Shown here piece after piece: positions 8,309-35,745 of a stretch of DNA of 35,989 nucleotides; within the stretch, counting starts at the first letter, position 1; every line of letters starts with the position of its first letter. The DNA comes from a virus. The stretch lies in the IMG/VR virus record IMGVR_UViG_3300047546_000408, positions 1-35,989 of that record. One strand, 5' to 3'. The position numbers and the translations under genes were made by a program. The notes under the pieces are model-generated. The model was not told the DNA's origin and did not search any database. It saw only the letters and a list, made by a program, of their open reading frames with translations.

Positions 8309-11300
8309 TTATTTGCCGTAAGTATCAGCAATGATTCGATTTTTTCGCATTTTTGCGCCAAGCTCAGGGAACTCCACTTTCACGTCTGACAACCCTACGT
8401 CAGCCTCATTCCCGTCGTTGTCGCCAACCATGCGTAGCTTTGCCATCTGCCGATACTGCTCGGTTAAGTGTTTGATAATGTTCTGCTGTTTGCCAATGGA
8501 TGTTTCCTCGCCCAGCGCCGCAGAATCCTCGCGCTCGCGCCGGATCTCATAGACGATGCGCTGCTCGAGATTCATGCCGTCATCCAGTATTTCTTGACCA
8601 TACAGTTTCTTGAACCGGTTGATCTGGTCTGCTGACAAGCGCACGCCGTCCCATGTCTCGCTGGGGTTGGTGATGCCAAAGTTTAGGCTGACAAGGATCT
8701 CGTCGGCTTCGGAAAACTTGCCCTCGCTGGCCTGCACCACGGGCGACCAGTTTGCCCAGTAGTCCAGACCACGGTTGCGCACCTTGCTTTCGCGGCCAAG
8801 GTTGTCCAGCAGCGGCGGTACGTTGGCAGATACGCCTGGGATGCGTGACATGACCCGTTGCCAGGCTTCTTGAAAAGCCCGCAGGACAGGCGGTGCGTCC
8901 ATCTCTGGTGACTTGGTGTTGGATCTGGTCGGGTCGAACAGACGCTCAATGTGTGCCATCGCGGTGCTGTTGGTCATGCCAACGCCAGGCGTGCCGGTGT
9001 AGACAAAGTTGGCGTATTGCTTGGCCAGCGCGTCAAAGACCTGAACCGTCTTTTCGCCTGCGTCGTTGGAGCGCGAGCGGGCGATCTGCAGCAGCTCGCC
9101 AATGCCCTGCATCAGCGGCAGGTTGCCCATGTACTCAGCCGTGGCAGTCATGCCAGCCATCGCCATGACCTGCCAATCCTCGCGGTCTGGGTGACGGTCA
9201 AACTTGGCGGCATCGCCCATGTTTGCACCAAGCGCCAGCACCATGCTCACAGGGTCGAAGCGGGCATAGCTGACATAAACCTTGTCAGGGCCGACTCCAA
9301 CCTTTGTGATGCCACGCAGCCGCTCAAGGTTTTCTTCGCTGATCTCACCCTTGTCGAACACGAGCGAATGCGGTTGCCAGCCAAGCGCCTCAAGCGCCTT
9401 GCGATCCTCAGTCTGCGTCGGGCCTGAACCGGTGATGCGGTTATCGAGCGCCATCAATGCAGATCCACTCACAGCGGTGCCGCCCATTGCCAAGCGGGCA
9501 ATGGCAACATCGCGGTGCCTGCCGCCTTTTTCCCACAGGTCATAAAAGCGTGGAGACAGCATGTTCAGCATAGGGATGTAGCTTGACCCCTCGTTGAACA
9601 GATTGGTGATGGTCTTGGAGAACGGGACAATCACCTTGACCGGAGCAAGGTTCAGGACATTGTTGGCTTGGTAGTAAGTCTCGCCAAGTACACCCTCGCG
9701 CTCAATACGATCCTGCAGCGTCACCATGCGACGGAAGCCGTCCATGTTTTCCTGAATGGATTGCGGGCGTTCCGTCAGCATTTGCCCGACCTTGGCAGAC
9801 ACCTCTGCTCGAGCTGCGTCCTCGGTCATGCCGTTGGCGATCAGCCGGTCATACTCTTTGTTTGCAAAACGCCATGCTTCCTCATGCAGCTGATAGCGGG
9901 CTGCAATACCGCCGACAAATTCATCGGCTGCGGCAATCGGCTTGAAGCTCAAGATGTCTTGCGCAAAGCCAAGGCCATCCAGCGCCTTGCCAATCCATGT
10001 GTCGCGCAGATCCGGTGTCCGGTAAACCTCTTTACCGAAAAGACGGAGCGGGGTATCTGACAGGTACTCTGCGCTGACCGGGTTTCCGGCCTTGCCAGCG
10101 TCGCTGAATTTGGACTCGCCGCCACGCTTGAATGCTTCCTTTGCGAGCTCCCAGCCATCAAGGATGCCGTTTTTTACACCAGACAGACCAGCCAGAATAT
10201 CGTCTGCCATGTAGCGATCAGGGTCGCTGCCAGGGATCATCTGGCGAGCCTTGCCGATAGGTATAGCTAGCGACCGCTCAATGGGCGCAAGCGATCCAAA
10301 CACTGAGCTGCCAGCCAAGTTGTATGCGTGCGTCTGCGGGTCGTTCAGCAGGTTGGCTTGATAGGTATGGAACCAGACATCCCGCAGCTTCGCGCCAAGG
10401 CCGACTTCAACCAGAGCATTCTTTCCTGCGCGGGTAGGTGCAGCCAAGTAATCCTCTGCCAGCTGATACAGCACCGAGTCGGACTGATTCGCGCCAAGCT
10501 CGTCCAGCGCAGCGCGGATGTCCTTGGTGGCCAGTCCCGGCCCCTTGTCCTTGACGCGCTTAAACACGTTCATGGAGCGGGCAACGTCGGTCTGGATACC
10601 CTTGAGCTGGTCAACGATGATCTTGTGCTGCGCCAGTTTCAGGCGCAGGTCGAGCTTGCCAGCATCGTCCAGCTGACCAGCAGCCATCTTGCCAAACAAG
10701 TCATCCAGCATCTTGGCGCTTTCGTCATGCACGGTCACAGCACCAGCAAGCTGCTGCGCAAGCTGACTGCCGCCAACAGTCGTTTCCATGCTTTCGCCTG
10801 CCAGCGTGCGCTTCAGGAACTGCTCAGGCACGCCAGCATTGATGGCACGCATGTACATGGAGCGAATCGACATGCTGGGGTCTTGCTTTGCGGCAGACTC
10901 ACCGGCAGCACGGATCGTGGCAGCCAGACCATCGTTGTCCGTCCATGCGCTTGAGATCGGTGTTTCTGGCGGCTTGGCCTGTGCCTCGCCAGCGGCGATC
11001 ATGCGATCACGCTCTGCGGCAACCTTGTTTACATCGGTCACATCTGCAGCGCGAACCTGCGGCTTTGGTTTTGGTGTAACAGCTGGAGCAGGCGCAACTG
11101 GCGGCGGGTTCGGATTAACCACGCCAAGCGGGGCAGGGGGCTGCGGCATCTTTGCTGCATCGTCCAGCAGCTTAGGTTCTTTGGCTGCGCGAGCTCCCTT
11201 GCGTACCAGCGGCTCAAGAATATCGCGGGTCAGTTTGCCAACACCGGCAACTTGAATGGAGTCCGGTGCTTCTGGTTCCTCAGTCGGCGGCAAGGCAGGC

Positions 11301-11368
11301 GGCAGCGCAGTTGGATCTGGTACTGCTGCCATCTGGTCGATGCGCTGGTTGAGCGGGTCAATTGCCAT
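8309..11368 (-). CDS. Large internal virion (ejection) protein
   Basis: This 1019-residue protein is the largest in the genome and sits between the gp14/gp15-like genes and the fibres, the place of T7 gene 16. The N-terminus is Pro-rich and disordered (PTALPPALPPTEEPEAP; PQPPAPLGVVNPNPPP). The middle has NLLNDPQTHAYNLAGSSVFG, found in large podovirus ejection proteins, and VKVIVPFSKTITNLFNEG with nearby hydrophobic helices (ARLAMGGTAVSGSALMAL) that could enter the inner membrane. The C-terminus is charged helix. No lytic transglycosylase motif is obvious. The role in forming the DNA ejection channel is inferred from order and size. Confidence 0.75.
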   Translation of the reverse strand: MAIDPLNQRIDQMAAVPDPTALPPALPPTEEPEAPDSIQVAGVGKLTRDILEPLVRKGARAAKEPKLLDDAAKMPQPPAPLGVVNPNPPPVAPAPAVTPKPKPQVRAADVTDVNKVAAERDRMIAAGEAQAKPPETPISSAWTDNDGLAATIRAAGESAAKQDPSMSIRSMYMRAINAGVPEQFLKRTLAGESMETTVGGSQLAQQLAGAVTVHDESAKMLDDLFGKMAAGQLDDAGKLDLRLKLAQHKIIVDQLKGIQTDVARSMNVFKRVKDKGPGLATKDIRAALDELGANQSDSVLYQLAEDYLAAPTRAGKNALVEVGLGAKLRDVWFHTYQANLLNDPQTHAYNLAGSSVFGSLAPIERSLAIPIGKARQMIPGSDPDRYMADDILAGLSGVKNGILDGWELAKEAFKRGGESKFSDAGKAGNPVSAEYLSDTPLRLFGKEVYRTPDLRDTWIGKALDGLGFAQDILSFKPIAAADEFVGGIAARYQLHEEAWRFANKEYDRLIANGMTEDAARAEVSAKVGQMLTERPQSIQENMDGFRRMVTLQDRIEREGVLGETYYQANNVLNLAPVKVIVPFSKTITNLFNEGSSYIPMLNMLSPRFYDLWEKGGRHRDVAIARLAMGGTAVSGSALMALDNRITGSGPTQTEDRKALEALGWQPHSLVFDKGEISEENLERLRGITKVGVGPDKVYVSYARFDPVSMVLALGANMGDAAKFDRHPDREDWQVMAMAGMTATAEYMGNLPLMQGIGELLQIARSRSNDAGEKTVQVFDALAKQYANFVYTGTPGVGMTNSTAMAHIERLFDPTRSNTKSPEMDAPPVLRAFQEAWQRVMSRIPGVSANVPPLLDNLGRESKVRNRGLDYWANWSPVVQASEGKFSEADEILVSLNFGITNPSETWDGVRLSADQINRFKKLYGQEILDDGMNLEQRIVYEIRREREDSAALGEETSIGKQQNIIKHLTEQYRQMAKLRMVGDNDGNEADVGLSDVKVEFPELGAKMRKNRIIADTYGK

Positions 11369-29810: not shown

Positions 29811-30133
29811 AGGTTGATCCCCTTTCCCGATCTATCTTCCCGCTCCTGCCGCTGCATCTGCAGCAGGCTGCGTCTTGTCATCTTCTTGAGCACGCCGTAC
29901 AGCGCCTCGTAACCCACCGCATGGCCTTGCAGGATCAGCTCCTCATGCAGCTGCACCGTGGTCATGGGGCCGAAGTCCACCAGGATCTCCACGATGGCCT
30001 CGCGCACCTCTGACTTCTCCTGCTGCCCCTTGTTGTAATGACCAAGCCCAACCCGAATGACCTGACGGCCTTCGGCTGGTGCCAGCGTGACCTTCTCGCC
30101 TGCCAGCTGCCTGACGACGAGATCCCAGTTCAT
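29783..30133 (-). CDS. Winged-helix DNA-binding protein
   Basis: 116 residues from ATG 30133 (ATGA overlap with the nuclease stop; the longer frame from 30265 lies inside the nuclease gene). MNWDLVVRQLAGEKVTLAP is followed by a wHTH-like domain, SEVREAIVEILVDFGPMTTVQLHEELILQGHAVGYEALYGVLKKMTRRSLL, then WRIVDNKR. Likely a regulator or replication accessory of the early leftward operon. Confidence 0.65.
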   Translation of the reverse strand: MNWDLVVRQLAGEKVTLAPAEGRQVIRVGLGHYNKGQQEKSEVREAIVEILVDFGPMTTVQLHEELILQGHAVGYEALYGVLKKMTRRSLLQMQRQEREDRSGKGINLWRIVDNKR

Positions 30134-30450
30134 TTGAGCTGGTCGCGCATCATTGGAATGAAATGCTCGAGGCGCAGGCACACTCGCCAAGGCTGCCCAT
30201 TGCGCCTGTACATCAGCACCGGCACTTCGCCGGGTGACGCGCAGGCCTCGACTTGTTCGCTCCATTGGTCAATCCTCAATGTCTCCTGACGCTTCACCTC
30301 AATGCGGAACTGGGCGACCGTCAGATCATCTGCCCCGTCACGTGCCTGACCCAGATTGCGCTTGACCACAAAACCCAAGTGCTCAGAGAGCAGGGCGGCA
30401 AGCTCACGTTCGCCAGCGGCTCCCTTGTTACGTTTGCCTCGTCCGTTCAT
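30130..30450 (-). CDS. PD-(D/E)XK nuclease, Holliday junction resolvase-like
   Basis: A 106-residue protein. GERE (E14), DGADDL (D41/D42) and IEVK (E51-x-K53) form the PD-(D/E)XK active site, with an N-terminal KRNKGAAGERELAALL helix. This is the build of small phage endonucleases related to archaeal/phage junction resolvases. It could resolve recombination intermediates made by the RecT/YqaJ pair, or trim branched replication DNA before packaging. Its ATG overlaps the stop of the frame at 30447-31322 (ATGA), not the methyltransferase stop. Confidence 0.8.
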   Translation of the reverse strand: MNGRGKRNKGAAGERELAALLSEHLGFVVKRNLGQARDGADDLTVAQFRIEVKRQETLRIDQWSEQVEACASPGEVPVLMYRRNGQPWRVCLRLEHFIPMMRDQLK

Positions 30451-31322
30451 GCGGCCTCACGATCCGGCGAGTATTCGCCATGCTGTTGCTGCCACCGCTG
30501 GTACTTGCCCGTTGCCAATGGCTTTAAGTCTGTCCACCCGATTGGCCACCCCATCAGCCACTCGACCCAATCGGGGTTCAGCGTCCCACCACCTGCTGGC
30601 GTTTCCTCCACTGCAAAAATCCGACGAGCCAGCTGATCCGTCCTGTTGCGGTCTGGCAAATGCTTGGTCATGCCAGGCGTGTCCTTCCAATCCCGCGCCG
30701 ATGGTGTTGGCCACATGTGCTGGTTGCTCACCTGATCGCGCAGGTTGGCCGGTTTGCTCCTGCCCGGACGCGCTACCGTAGCCTCCCGATGCAACGCTTC
30801 GGCCGACTTCGGCGGCAGGCTGTCCATCGTGGTTGGTGTAGCCCAGAATCCAGATGCGCTTTCTTCGATGGGGGGCACCGACATCGTCTGCTCCCAGCAC
30901 GCACCATTGCGCATCAAACCCCATTGCGGCCAAGTCTCCGAGAACTCGTCCAAGTCCTCGAGCAACGAGCATTGGGCTGTTTTCCACGAACACGAATCGC
31001 GGTCGTACTTCGCAAACCACCCGCGCCATTTCTGTCCAGAGTCCTGATCGCTCTCCGTCAAGGCCGTCGCCTTTGCCTGCGATGCTGATGTCTTGGCACG
31101 GAAACCCTCCTGAAACCACGTCAACAATTCCGCGCCACGGTCTGCCATCAAAGGTTCGGATGTCATCCCAAACCGGGAAAGGCGCGAGTGTTCCGTCGTT
31201 TTGTCTGGCCAGTAATATGCTTCTGGCATAGGCGTTGAACTCGACGGCGCAGACAGTGCGCCAACCAAGCAGGTGGCCTCCAAGAAGGCCGCCACCAGCG
31301 CCTGCGAACAGTGCCAGCTCAT
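30447..31322 (-). CDS. Overprinted protein in the methyltransferase locus, WPTP-type phage family
   Basis: A 291-residue frame, open along the full methyltransferase gene in the other frame. It contains FQEGFRAKTSASQ, DSCSWKTAQCSLLEDLDEFSETWPQWGLMRNGACWE, FWATPTTMDSLPP, MWPTPSARDWKDTPG and LNPDWVEWLMGWPIGWTDLKPL. Together these form a recurrent pattern of stand-alone phage proteins of unknown function (as far as I recall it). ATG 31322 lies 4 bases after the TTG of the methyltransferase, sharing its ribosome site, and the stop makes an ATGA overlap with the next gene. Either both frames are used, or this one is a strikingly preserved shadow. Confidence 0.55.
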   Translation of the reverse strand: MSWHCSQALVAAFLEATCLVGALSAPSSSTPMPEAYYWPDKTTEHSRLSRFGMTSEPLMADRGAELLTWFQEGFRAKTSASQAKATALTESDQDSGQKWRGWFAKYDRDSCSWKTAQCSLLEDLDEFSETWPQWGLMRNGACWEQTMSVPPIEESASGFWATPTTMDSLPPKSAEALHREATVARPGRSKPANLRDQVSNQHMWPTPSARDWKDTPGMTKHLPDRNRTDQLARRIFAVEETPAGGGTLNPDWVEWLMGWPIGWTDLKPLATGKYQRWQQQHGEYSPDREAA

Positions 31323-31326
31323 TCAA
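30457..31326 (-). CDS. DNA (cytosine-5) methyltransferase
   Basis: A 289-residue C5-MTase. Motif I is LFAGAGGGLLGG (6-17); motif IV is GGFPCQDIS with catalytic Cys77; motif VI is VENSP (114-118); motif VIII is RKRIWI (155-160); motif X is GNGQVP (~271-276). The target-recognition region is short and Gly/Ser-rich. It starts at TTG 31326 within the stop of the repressor gene (GAGG 5 bases upstream); no in-frame ATG would keep motif I. No cognate restriction enzyme is nearby, so it probably shields phage DNA from host restriction. Nearly the whole gene is overlapped by a second open frame on the same strand. Confidence 0.93.
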   Translation of the reverse strand: MNELALFAGAGGGLLGGHLLGWRTVCAVEFNAYARSILLARQNDGTLAPFPVWDDIRTFDGRPWRGIVDVVSGGFPCQDISIAGKGDGLDGERSGLWTEMARVVCEVRPRFVFVENSPMLVARGLGRVLGDLAAMGFDAQWCVLGADDVGAPHRRKRIWILGYTNHDGQPAAEVGRSVASGGYGSASGQEQTGQPARSGEQPAHVANTIGAGLEGHAWHDQAFARPQQDGSAGSSDFCSGGNASRWWDAEPRLGRVADGVANRVDRLKAIGNGQVPAVAATAWRILAGS

Positions 31327-31508
31327 GCAGACCTCAGCATCTTGTCCAAGCGTGTCTCAGTGGTGCTGTAACGCTCCCTGAGTGCCTGGTGGACGAGCTC
31401 GTCAACGATGGATGCCCGCGAGCGGCGCTGATCCCGCGCAGCCTGGTCGAGCAGGGCGCGTGTCTCAGGGCGCAGTCGCATCATGAAGTGCTTGAATTCC
31501 GAACGCAT
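31323..31508 (-). CDS. Arc/MetJ-type ribbon-helix-helix repressor
   Basis: 61 residues from ATG 31508 (GGAG 7 bases upstream). FKHFMMRLRPETRALLDQAARDQRRSRASIVDELVHQAL is a classic RHH domain: beta strand FMMRLRP, helix A, then helix B after the RSRAS turn. Such dimers bind short repeated sites. It is the first gene leftward from the divergent control region, next to a perfect inverted repeat that may be its operator, so it probably represses its own promoter and/or the rightward one, as Arc does in P22. Confidence 0.85.
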   Translation of the reverse strand: MRSEFKHFMMRLRPETRALLDQAARDQRRSRASIVDELVHQALRERYSTTETRLDKMLRSA

Positions 31509-31530
31509 GTCCAATCTCCAAAAGGTAGTA

Positions 31531-31594
31531 TTGCGCGACGGTATACCAAAATTCAAACGATGCCAATGGTTGCAGCATTGTTAACGTCGCGCAA
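31531..31594. promoter_or_regulatory. Divergent control region with inverted operator-like sites
   Basis: TTGCGCGACG at 31531-31540 and its exact reverse complement CGTCGCGCAA at 31585-31594, 54 bases apart centre to centre; similarity extends to TTGCGCGACG-n-TA. The left copy abuts a possible - strand promoter (TTGGCA at 31566-31561, 15 bases, TATACC at 31545-31540, with an extended TG). The right copy lies 18 bases upstream of the + strand -35. The 10-bp identity is far beyond chance in such a short gap. Likely half-sites for the RHH repressor. Confidence 0.65.
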
Positions 31595-31611
31595 AAGATA
31601 CGTTTGAGTGC

Positions 31612-31640
31612 TTGACAGATGTATCGGCGAGATATATTTT
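31612..31640 (+). promoter_or_regulatory. Sigma70 promoter of the rightward operon
   Basis: TTGACA (31612-31617), consensus -35, with TATTTT (31635-31640) after a 17-base spacer; TATATT at 31633-31638 gives 15. Transcription would start near 31647, 45 bases before the recombinase ATG. Best promoter in the genome. Confidence 0.8.
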
Positions 31641-31691
31641 TCGTCTTACGGTTATTCCCGACCGCGACCACCGAGATCCAGGAGTCGAAAC

Positions 31692-32372
31692 ATGGCACCG
31701 CACACAGGCAAATTTGTCGCCTACTACCGCGTATCAACAGACAAGCAGGGCCGCTCCGGCCTTGGCCTTGAAGCACAGCAAGAACTTGTTAGGAATTTCC
31801 TCAATGGAGGCCGCTGGTCTGTAATTGGTGAATTCACCGAGATCGAGTCCGGTACTCGCAAGCGACTCAAGAACCGCCCAATGCTCAAGGCAGCACTTGA
31901 GCTTGCCCGCAAACAGAAAGCCACTTTGGTAGTCGCCAAGCTTGACCGCCTAGCGCGTGATGTTCAGTTCATCAGTACTCTGTTGAACGGCAACGTAAAG
32001 TTTGTTTGCGCCGACATGCCTGAAGCTGACCGCACGTTCCTCCAGATGGTCAGCGTTTTTTCCGAATACGAAGCCAAACGGATCTCAGAGCGCACCACCG
32101 AAGCGCTGGCAGCATTAAAGCGCCAGGGCAAAAAGCTGGGCAGCCCGTCGCCTGAAATCGGCAGTGCTGAGGGCGTAAAAGTTCTTAAAGCAAACGCTGA
32201 CGCTTATGCAGAGCGCGTTGGCCCTGTCGTGCGAGACATCATCCGCAAGACTGGCTCATCAACATTGCGCGAGATCGCCGAGGCACTGACTGCTCGAGGC
32301 GTTGAAACGCCACGCGGCAATATCGACTGGCGTGCCAGCCAGGTATCTAACCTGTTGAAAAGGATCAAATGA
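31692..32372 (+). CDS. Serine recombinase (resolvase/invertase type)
   Basis: 226 residues from ATG 31692 (AGGAG 7 bases upstream). The catalytic domain is YYRVSTDKQG with Ser15 as nucleophile and Arg13, and AKLDRLARD with Arg86/Arg89. The E-helix region includes EYEAKRISERT. The C-terminal DNA-binding part includes TLREIAEALTARGVETPRG, a recombinase-type HTH. At this size it resembles small resolvase/invertase proteins rather than large serine integrases. It may act in integration, genome dimer resolution or circularisation. No att-like or inverted target sites were recognised. Its stop overlaps the next gene's start. Confidence 0.9.
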   Translation: MAPHTGKFVAYYRVSTDKQGRSGLGLEAQQELVRNFLNGGRWSVIGEFTEIESGTRKRLKNRPMLKAALELARKQKATLVVAKLDRLARDVQFISTLLNGNVKFVCADMPEADRTFLQMVSVFSEYEAKRISERTTEALAALKRQGKKLGSPSPEIGSAEGVKVLKANADAYAERVGPVVRDIIRKTGSSTLREIAEALTARGVETPRGNIDWRASQVSNLLKRIK

Positions 32373-33292: not shown

Positions 33293-33589
33293 ATGCTCCC
33301 CGTTACCGGTCGCGATCTACGCGATGCGCAACTTGCGCTTTTTGAGCACAGAGACACAGAGTTTCTGTGCCACTGTCGAGCACTAGCCGTTGAGATAGCT
33401 CGAACACAAGGCACTGTGTGCATCAATGACATAAGAGCACAGCTGCGCTTGCCCTCAGAAATGCACCCCAGTGTCCTTGGGGCTGTTTTCAAATCAAAAA
33501 AATTTACCCCGGTTGGTTACACCGAGGCCACCCACAAGGCGGCTCACGCCCGCGTTGTGCGCGTCTACAAACTCACGGAGGAAAACTAA
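33293..33589 (+). CDS. Small early protein, winged-helix-like
   Basis: A 98-residue protein. RDLRDAQLALFEHRDTEFLCHCRALAVEIARTQGTVCINDIRAQLRLPSEMHPSVLGAVFKSKKFTPVGY looks like a phage family with a small winged-helix fold (a.rlA...g.v..ddvr......p....p...gavf....f...g). It lies immediately before the exonuclease gene, with one-base overlap. It may regulate or bind DNA in recombination. Confidence 0.7.
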   Translation: MLPVTGRDLRDAQLALFEHRDTEFLCHCRALAVEIARTQGTVCINDIRAQLRLPSEMHPSVLGAVFKSKKFTPVGYTEATHKAAHARVVRVYKLTEEN

Positions 33590-34542
33590 TGGCTGGTAAG
33601 AAAACCCCCGATGACATCATGTCTGCGTCCCGACTGCCTGCCCTGCTGGGCCTGTCTCGGTACGCCACCCCAAACGACGAGCTCATCTACAGCATCAACG
33701 CCATCAAAGGCAATGAGCGCGAGGATAAGTCCAACGAATCTATGCGCTGGGGCGACCGCCTTGAGGCGCTGATCCTGAAGGAAGCAGCAGAGCGCCTGCA
33801 GCTGTCCGAGCTGGCCACCGAGTTCAATGCGGCTTTCTACCACCAGACACTGCCGCTGTGCTGCAGCCTAGATGGGTACGCAGACGGTCGCGGGCAGATC
33901 ATCCGCACTGACGAAGATGCAGGCATCTACGTCATTGGTGCCGAGCAGATTGAGCTCGCAGGTCACGGCGTGCTGGAAGCCAAGCTCACAGCTGTGTCGC
34001 CAGAGGAAGTGCCTGCGCTTTATCGCGGCCCGGTGCAGCTCCAGGCACAGATGGACATTCTGCAGGCCAAATGGGGCGCTGTCTGCGTGCTGTATCAGGG
34101 CACGGCGCTGCGCATCTTCCTGTTTGAGCCGCACGTTCAGACGCTGGCAACCATCAAGGCTGCGGTGCTGGAATTCCAGGACAAGCTGGAGCGGTTCCGC
34201 GCTGACGGCACGATTGATTACTACCCACCAGCAACCAGCGAAGATGCCGATCGGTTGTGGCCAGCAGCTGAAGATAAGGTCGTGCAGCTCGACACTGAGG
34301 CTGAATTACTGGCCGAAAAAATTGCAACAGCAAAAGCCACAATTACCAAAGCCGCAAAGGATTGCGCGGATGCAGAAAAGGATCTGAAAGCATTGCTTGG
34401 CACCGCCAGCAAAGGCATTGCAGGCCGGTTTGAGATCCGCTGGCCGATGCGTAATTACCAAGCGCAGCCCGCAAAGACAGTGCCTGCAAAGGCCGCGTAC
34501 ACCATCCGGCAGTCCACCCTTAGCGTGAAGGAACTGGCATGA
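33589..34542 (+). CDS. YqaJ-type viral recombination exonuclease
   Basis: A 317-residue protein with the lambda-exonuclease/YqaJ fold: SASRLPALLGLSRYATP (~12-28), WGDRLE (E59), SLDGYAD (D95), GVLEAKLT (E130, K132) and VQLQAQMDIL (Q150/Q152), the conserved catalytic set. The C-terminal third is a coiled coil. It chews 5' ends of duplex DNA to give 3' single strands for RecT. It pairs with recT 160 bases downstream, a complete two-protein recombination system. Confidence 0.92.
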   Translation: MAGKKTPDDIMSASRLPALLGLSRYATPNDELIYSINAIKGNEREDKSNESMRWGDRLEALILKEAAERLQLSELATEFNAAFYHQTLPLCCSLDGYADGRGQIIRTDEDAGIYVIGAEQIELAGHGVLEAKLTAVSPEEVPALYRGPVQLQAQMDILQAKWGAVCVLYQGTALRIFLFEPHVQTLATIKAAVLEFQDKLERFRADGTIDYYPPATSEDADRLWPAAEDKVVQLDTEAELLAEKIATAKATITKAAKDCADAEKDLKALLGTASKGIAGRFEIRWPMRNYQAQPAKTVPAKAAYTIRQSTLSVKELA

Positions 34543-34724
34543 AAAGCCTCGACCTGCGACCGCTGGAGCTCGCCCATGCCCGCGCCGTCAATGCACTGAT
34601 GGGCAACATCCCAAAGCTGTCCAACGATGATGCCTGCGAAATCATTGAGGCACTGATGGCCGTCGTTTTTGAAACACTCAAACAATACGCACAGGAGGAA
34701 GATGATGCAGCTGACTACAACTAA
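34539..34724 (+). CDS. Small acidic protein between exonuclease and recT
   Basis: A 61-residue helical acidic protein (MKSLDLRPLELAHARAVNALMGNIPKLSNDDACEIIEALM, then FETLKQYAQEEDDAADYN). ATGA overlap with the exonuclease stop and 20-base overlap with recT. Its place suggests a helper of the recombination pair. Not recognised. Confidence 0.7.
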   Translation: MKSLDLRPLELAHARAVNALMGNIPKLSNDDACEIIEALMAVVFETLKQYAQEEDDAADYN

Positions 34725-35745
34725 TCGCCAAGGCTTTGCCCCGACCACGCTGGGTGAAGCGATGGATTTCAGCCACATGCTGGCCAAGTCCCAGATGGTG
34801 CCGAAGCAGTACCAGGGCAAGCCGGAGGACATCATGGTCGCAGTTCAATGGGGATATGAAATTGGTTTGCAGCCCATGCAGGCGCTGCAAAACATCAGCG
34901 TCATCAACGGCAAGCCGAGCGTATACGGTGACGCAGCGATGGCGCTGGTGCAGGCCAGCCCCGTCTGCGAAGGCGTGGACGAAAGCATCGAGGGCGAAGG
35001 CACACCGAACCCGGTCGCCGTCTGCATCGCCAGACGCAAGGGCAGGAACCCGGTGATCGTTCGCTTCAGCGTTGAGGATGCCAAGCGGGCAGGGCTGTGG
35101 GGCAAGCAGGGGCCGTGGCAGGCGTATCCCAAACGGATGCTGCAGATGCGAGCTCGAGGCTTTGCCCTGCGTGATGCCTTCCCTGACGTGCTCAAAGGGC
35201 TGATTACCGCTGAGGAGGCGCAAGATTACCCAGACGAGGCCAAGCCTAGGCCGATCAAGGATGTCACGCCCATGCCAGCCAACCCGCTGGATGTGATCGC
35301 GCCGCCCAGCCTGCCGGAGCCGGAGCCGGAGCCTGAGCCAGTCGAGGCAGTGACCGTGGACGAGTATGTGCCAGACCTGGACGAATCCGATTTGCAGAAC
35401 GATTCTGCAGAATCTGCAGAACCTGCTGCAGAACTCGATGTGATAGACGGCGTGCCAATCATGGTTCCCGGCAAGGCCGAGCCGCACGCAGTGTTTGCCA
35501 GCCTGGATGACTGGGCAGCTGCGCTGGAGGATCTGTTCGACAAGACCGCCAGGGCAGGTAAGCGCCCGGTGCGCGAGCGCATGACCATTTTGAAAGAGTT
35601 GCGGCAGCTGAACGAGGAGAACTTGCAGCGCGTTGAGCTCACCAAAAAGACGGCACTGATCTCAATGTACGGCAGGCGCATCAGGGCGCTGGGTGCGCAG
35701 CTGACTGAGGAGGAAAAGGAAGCGGAGAAAAAAACCCCGGCCTAA
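34705..35745 (+). CDS. recT: RecT-family single-strand annealing protein
   Basis: 346 residues from ATG 34705 (GGAGG 6 bases upstream). The RecT core includes FAPTTLGEAMDFSHMLAKSQMVPKQYQGKPEDIMVAVQWGYEIGLQPMQALQNISVINGKPSVYGDAAMALV and WQAYPKRMLQMRARGFALRDAFPDVLKGL. A Glu/Pro-rich linker (EPEPEPEP) and an acidic region follow. The C-terminus is a charged helical domain ending EEEKEAEKKTPA. It anneals complementary single strands made by the YqaJ exonuclease. Last gene of the rightward operon; its TAA lies in the loop of the terminator hairpin. Confidence 0.93.
   Translation: MQLTTTNRQGFAPTTLGEAMDFSHMLAKSQMVPKQYQGKPEDIMVAVQWGYEIGLQPMQALQNISVINGKPSVYGDAAMALVQASPVCEGVDESIEGEGTPNPVAVCIARRKGRNPVIVRFSVEDAKRAGLWGKQGPWQAYPKRMLQMRARGFALRDAFPDVLKGLITAEEAQDYPDEAKPRPIKDVTPMPANPLDVIAPPSLPEPEPEPEPVEAVTVDEYVPDLDESDLQNDSAESAEPAAELDVIDGVPIMVPGKAEPHAVFASLDDWAAALEDLFDKTARAGKRPVRERMTILKELRQLNEENLQRVELTKKTALISMYGRRIRALGAQLTEEEKEAEKKTPA

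Follow-up and report, generated by a model that had tools for sequence, protein, structure and literature searches.

In an ordinary methyltransferase, motif IX and the target-recognition region form a small DNA-binding domain. M.EcoHK31I (YGGCCR) is a two-polypeptide C5-methyltransferase, and its small polypeptide is reportedly read from a second frame within the gene of the large one. According to a summary of the work of Lee, Kam and Shaw (1995), motifs I-VIII and X of M.EcoHK31I are on the large subunit, as is the predicted target-recognition domain, and only motif IX is on the small polypeptide (PMC3404938). M.AquI (CYCGRG) is split before motif IX, with motifs I-VIII on one chain and IX on another (PMC3404938). 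A phage methylase with an out-of-frame insertion, in this case an HNH endonuclease, has been described for ShiLan (PMC11855218). Here we describe a viral methyltransferase gene that is overlapped over almost its whole length by a second reading frame.

Layout of the overlapping frames

The window (the whole stretch of 35,989 nucleotides of viral DNA that was analysed) contains two long open frames on its minus strand. The methyltransferase (MTase) frame starts with TTG at 31326-31324, its stop ends at 30457 and it encodes 289 amino acids. The second frame, termed ALT, runs from an ATG at 31322-31320 to a TGA stop at 30449-30447 and encodes 291 amino acids. Coordinates and sequences of both frames agree with those given in the first-pass annotation of this DNA. 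The overlap amounts to 866 bp, ALT is +1 relative to the MTase, and codon position 3 of the MTase is codon position 2 of ALT. The features of the locus are as follows:

31323-31556, minus strand: preceding gene, Arc-like ribbon-helix-helix protein (phrog_3431, 2.8e-5); its stop overlaps the MTase start
31331-31335, minus strand: GAGGT, Shine-Dalgarno-like, with a spacing of 4 bases to the TTG and 8 to the ALT start (from the sequence)
31320-31326, minus strand: TTGAATG, overlapping starts, with the MTase TTG, the ALT ATG 4 bases on and the upstream stop TGA at 31325-31323
30457-31326, minus strand: alpha, C5-cytosine methyltransferase frame, TTG start, motifs I-VIII and X, no IX (PF00145; phrog_363, 4e-71)
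30447-31322, minus strand: beta (ALT), ATG start, proposed motif IX/target-recognition subunit (MTase-selected loci, synonymous constraint, codon-shuffle z 12.1)
31093-31110, minus strand: MTase motif IV, GGFPCQ, with the catalytic Cys (from the sequence)
30844-30876, minus strand: MTase motif VIII, APHRRKRIWIL (from the sequence); the MTase frame of split variants ends just past here
30681-30713, minus strand: WPTPSARDWKD, ALT residues 204-214, one unit of a variable WPTPxxxD region that is the proposed target-recognition region (repeat number varies among relatives)
30525-30581, minus strand: ALT residues 248-266, LNPDWVEWLMGWPIGWTDL, proposed motif IX (4-fold difference 0.07-0.16; p3 < p1)
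30499-30531, minus strand: motif X, RLKAIGNGQVP, MTase residues 266-276, in the MTase frame (from the sequence; conserved in the family)
30130-30450, minus strand: next gene, PDDEXK_15/RusA-like nuclease (PF24608, 2.6e-10; phrog_244, 6.6e-21)

MTase motifs I, IV (PCQ), VI (EN) and VIII of the window are all in frame. PF00145 matches the window MTase with an E value of 1.6e-31, but the match is confined to profile positions 4-165 of 324; past position 165 there was no Pfam match to motif IX and a target-recognition domain on the MTase chain. We read the missing motif IX as the mark of an enzyme divided over two chains, and not as that of a non-member of PF00145.

The ATG of the next gene (30450) overlaps the ALT stop as ATGA. 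The first-pass annotation had taken this overlap to set ALT apart from the MTase; it is present in the window but is not a trait of the family, in which a stop of the (A/G/T)TGA type stands at the MTase end in 79 of 133 loci and at the ALT end in 34 of 133. Elsewhere in the window, matches to a serine recombinase, to RecE-like and RecT-like proteins and to an internal virion protein were found at 31608-32372 (+), 33589-35745 (+) and 8309-11368 (-); the window looks like a temperate short-tailed phage.

Selection on the second reading frame

Related loci were fetched in three sets: 80 viral loci with ALT, 80 with the MTase and 80 bacterial loci with the ALT profile, 240 in total. Both proteins were matched in the same +1 arrangement in all 240, including the 80 fetched by the MTase alone, and the overlap with its ALT arrangement spans loci of 36-67% GC. 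Acinetobacter phage vB_AbaM_ABMM1 and Pseudomonas phage phPA-G are among the cultured phages that have it. Six plasmid records were matched, five of them annotated as methyltransferases and one as hypothetical. Four E. coli genomes contain prophage relatives, none of which was recognised as EcoHK31I. In samples of 391 and 296 genomes from two bacterial orders, the MTase gave too few matches for use.

A frame is broken or shifted part-way in loci L064, L081, L118, L120, L121, L122, L187, L191, L192, L196, L209, L225, L232, L244 and L245. A broken ALT frame with an intact MTase is rare (L245). Eight loci have one or two stops in the MTase frame and an intact ALT (L064, L081, L187, L191, L192, L209, L225, L232); this is unexpected if both products are always needed, and these loci may be dead copies. 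In L120 and L121 (2005-2847), from a 36% GC relative, an indel shifts both frames together part-way through the gene. A prophage copy in E. coli strain PCP07014 (L403:3003-3764), which is flagged as a pseudogene, has one stop per frame at nearly the same spot.

Stops were analysed in 56 non-redundant loci selected by MTase; L118, L120, L121 and L122, whose frames shift part-way, were set aside. Synonymous resampling of these 56 loci predicts about 4.7 ALT stops per locus. Counted by column without ORF restriction, ALT residues 2-240 contain no stop compared to about 194 in a codon-shuffled null, and residues 241-285 contain 8 compared to about 48. High GC3 was considered as a source of the openness of ALT and was rejected, since GC3 averages about 0.5 in these genes.

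Variation at synonymous third positions is about half as high in the overlap as in neighbouring genes. The difference at 4-fold sites in the overlap and in neighbouring genes, respectively, was 0.29 and 0.45 at a protein identity of 0.8-0.95, 0.30 and 0.56 at 0.7-0.8, 0.38 and 0.63 at 0.6-0.7, and 0.51 and 0.67 at 0.5-0.6. Similarity in ALT is partly forced, because conservation of the MTase fixes the shared codon positions 1 and 2. A null was therefore generated by permuting synonymous codons within each gene, leaving the MTase protein and codon usage fixed (200 shuffles). The real ALT profile score was reached by none of the 200 shuffles in each of 14 family sequences (z 6.1 to 12.8), and the window scored 421 bits compared to a shuffle mean of 217 (z 12.1). 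About half of the ALT score is thus forced by the MTase protein, so that raw tblastn and PHROG E values overstate the case; that the similarity is wholly forced is rejected by the same null.

The excess over the null is found in every part of the gene; it is strongest at ALT residues 241-268 (z 48) and reaches z 27 at residues 2-60, which lie over motifs I-IV, where these regional values count related sequences as independent and serve to rank regions rather than as probabilities. The C-terminal block shows the usual codon pattern inverted, with a smaller difference at p3 (0.43) than at p1 (0.58), and the ALT residues are better conserved than the MTase residues (differences of 0.56 and 0.67, respectively). 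MTase residue 258, for example, is D, N or H (73, 27 and 27 loci), and the ALT residue there is Met in 127 of 129.

The start of ALT is conserved as well. Asn2 of the MTase is encoded by AAT in 118 of 118 cases, which gives ATG in the ALT frame, and the ALT start codon is ATG in 119 of 133 loci, GTG in six and another codon in eight. Across the family, the spacing between Shine-Dalgarno-like sites and the ALT start is mostly 5-9 bases. In some loci the MTase frame has no start codon here and the MTase gene must begin further upstream; the nine Shine-Dalgarno sites detected in such loci are all 5-6 bases from the ALT ATG. In five loci (L058, L076, L107, L111, L134) it is ALT that begins further upstream, with a related N-terminus of the (M/V)xW type.

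Taken together, both frames are under protein-level selection, the second with a conserved start, and on these sequence comparisons the second frame is protein-coding. The first-pass annotation had proposed overprinting of the MTase by a second, independently initiated product; the lack of stops, the constraint at 4-fold sites, the codon shuffles and the start all support this. It had also named loss of the second frame beside an intact MTase, and relaxed substitution in it, as observations that would speak against the proposal; the former is rare and the frame is constrained.

Proposed motif IX and a probable two-subunit enzyme

The best-conserved block of ALT reads LNPxWVEWLMGWPxGWTDL. In single-chain MTases of actinophages, a PTPxxxD region and an EW(M/L)MxxPxGW block are found in the MTase's own frame shortly before motif X, and the position just before motif X is where C5-methyltransferases carry motif IX. 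The matches of the ALT profile to these single-chain enzymes fall within the MTase frame itself (E values of 5e-13 to 2e-6), and the WPTPxxxD units, which differ in number between relatives, are the same in both. The single-chain enzyme L383, with PTP repeats, EWMMGWPxGWV and motif X in frame, matches PF00145 over positions 1-317 of 324. Its AlphaFold2 model (pTM 0.75, pLDDT of the block about 88-95) can be aligned with M.HhaI over its full length (Z 22.6, rmsd 4.3, 254 residues). From the position and the fold in these relatives we infer that the ALT block is motif IX.

The window MTase passes from motif VIII to motif X without such a block, and its motif X (30531-30499) is not on the same chain as the proposed motif IX. 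Since the block stands in frame before motif X in the relatives and is absent from the window MTase, the missing part of the MTase is very probably the second product. In split variants the first ORF keeps the catalytic part, and the MTase frame reaches motif VIII and closes there or shortly afterwards; the ALT-frame ORF carries the PTP region, motif IX and then motif X (L196, L244, L145, L131, L118, L122). Mycobacterium phage Anthony gp80/gp79 is such a split variant, and here too motif X follows the IX block in the ALT-frame ORF. In the single-chain genes L383, L397 and L399, which have motif IX in frame, second-frame similarity is still above the codon-shuffle null (z 4.4-6.3). In L357, L398 and L400 the IX block is read in +2 with respect to the catalytic part, which points to indels or a further frame switch.

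When PDB sequences and Pfam were searched with just the proposed motif IX region, no methyltransferase was found, and the ALT profile gave nothing significant against solved structures. AlphaFold2 predicted ALT alone poorly (pTM 0.31, the first ~100 residues mostly under pLDDT 50), and Foldseek with this model returned no matches. A subunit that folds only in the complex would explain the poor model, which is not proof of it.

We consider it probable that the locus encodes a two-subunit C5-cytosine methyltransferase working like M.EcoHK31I, with both subunits made from the same DNA. Alpha, the MTase frame, would supply the SAM-binding and catalytic motifs I-VIII plus motif X, and beta, the ALT frame, would supply motif IX and the variable target-recognition-like region. 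Beta would begin at its own ATG 4 bases after alpha, probably off the same ribosome site, so that one transcript would yield alpha and beta, which presumably bind each other and assemble into the active enzyme. Alpha alone should be inactive, and alpha with beta should methylate a short site. Methylation would shield the phage DNA from host restriction; such protection is the most likely role because this is a phage gene beside a RusA-like nuclease. The model gives the N-terminal ~60 residues of ALT no role.

A ribosomal frameshift from the MTase into ALT would instead produce a single transframe chain, with motifs I-VIII from frame 0 and the target-recognition-like region and motif IX from the +1 frame. 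The split variants lend this some appeal, since their ALT frame carries the target-recognition-like region, IX and X and a single +1 shift would complete the chain, and the single-chain relatives resemble the fixed outcome of one. A late shift, however, needs neither the conserved ALT start, nor a Shine-Dalgarno spacing that fits it, nor the constrained ALT N-terminus over motifs I-IV, and with motif X of the window in the MTase frame two shifts would be required. We therefore regard a frameshift as unlikely.

It is very unlikely that ALT acts on its own as a regulator or anti-restriction protein and overprints the MTase by chance, even though its conserved N-terminal third is without counterpart in single-chain MTases and some loci have an ALT start upstream of the usual one. 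Among the 160 loci fetched by ALT (80 viral, 80 bacterial) no stand-alone homologue was found, and the MTase overlaps ALT in each; its best-conserved block lies in frame within the MTases of relatives; and ALT had no match in Pfam or NCBIfam, while the PHROG families it matches carry the label DNA methyltransferase or unknown. The separate phage protein family and the anti-restriction function suggested in the first-pass annotation thus find no support in these searches, the block probably being the MTase's own motif IX region. The absence of stand-alone homologues, which that annotation had listed among the observations against its proposal, is explained if ALT is a subunit, and its other suggestion, a methyltransferase-modulating protein, comes close if it is read as an obligate second subunit. 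That ALT is untranslated, and owes its openness and similarity to the conserved MTase, to base composition or to RNA-level constraint, is extremely improbable, since the half of the score that is not forced lies beyond every codon shuffle, the arrangement persists from 36 to 67% GC, ALT is the better conserved frame in the IX block, and its start codon and lack of stops are conserved.

Breadth among phages and comparison with known systems

The Paenibacillus phage Diva type and the Mycobacterium phage SG4 type show the same +1 arrangement, with the second frame starting from about profile position 65, and exceed the codon shuffles (z 7.9 and 8.0). In the epsilon15/K1ind2 type the +1 frame contains LNPAHSRWLMGxPxxWD and also beats the codon shuffles (z 7.7-9.1); this motif-IX-like block is found in +1 in an E. 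coli PT62 prophage (L402:1047-2033), phage K1ind2 (L404:1152-2081) and phage epsilon15 (L405:1272-2441). These distant types, together with the 240 loci, bear out the first-pass remark that the overlap is possibly general in phages. Both products are annotated in some genomes (the 'g49 internal gene' of Diva; ORF28, 'Mte8-like', of K1ind2), more often one.

On balance, it seems plausible that fully or largely overlapping two-subunit MTases are common among phage C5-methyltransferases, that several families only deeply related to one another (window, Diva, SG4, epsilon15/K1ind2) read motif IX and the target-recognition part from the +1 frame, that repeated switches interconvert overlapping, split and single-chain forms, and that annotation usually records one product. 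We found no description of such an overlap in phage methyltransferases in the literature, and as far as the literature examined shows, the near-complete overlap and its breadth across phages are new. If this is true, cloning only the annotated ORF of a phage 'orphan' MTase would in many cases yield an inactive enzyme whose specificity is lost, because the recognition part lies in the unannotated frame. Research on overlapping genes would gain a widespread overlap in which ~290 codons are clearly under selection in both frames and each stage (overlapping, nested, split, fused) is represented in nature.

It would also explain families labelled 'DNA methyltransferase' or 'unknown' that resemble no methyltransferase. 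ALT residues 61-267 match PHROG 1008 (E value 3e-26), as do 103 of 106 ALT proteins; this family is labelled 'DNA methyltransferase', yet ALT is without a Pfam methyltransferase match, and the label appears to have been carried over to ALT-type proteins from the overlapping gene. ALT proteins of relatives also match PHROG families 31772, 16143 and 10223.

ShiLan resembles the window in that a phage methylase gene there also holds a further product in a different frame. There, however, the product is an inserted homing endonuclease, whereas ALT lies over the conserved catalytic core and not in an insertion; no HNH or other Pfam family was matched in ALT. The single-chain MTases of Mycobacterium phages Ramsey (gp69) and Tweety (gp72) and of Gordonia phage Stultus (gp4) share with ALT the PTP-repeat region and the EW(M/L)MxxPxGW block before motif X, but in these enzymes everything is in one reading frame.

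A close likeness is that to M.EcoHK31I, whose beta is reportedly shorter than the alpha-spanning beta of the window. In both, alpha carries motifs I-VIII and X; beta of the window is encoded inside alpha in another frame, as the small chain of M.EcoHK31I reportedly is. The likeness would be one of motif division, and no membership is claimed. Beta of the window, by contrast, spans nearly the whole alpha gene (291 and 289 codons, starts 4 bases apart), and the window gene belongs to a phage, where none of the neighbours examined was recognised as a restriction enzyme. The target-recognition-like region is on beta in the window, and the predicted target-recognition domain of M.EcoHK31I is on the large subunit (PMC3404938). 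The division of M.AquI is matched by the split variants L196, L244, L145 and L131, in which motif X is on the same chain as IX. Compared to M.AquI, the window keeps motif X on alpha, and its two genes overlap almost fully.
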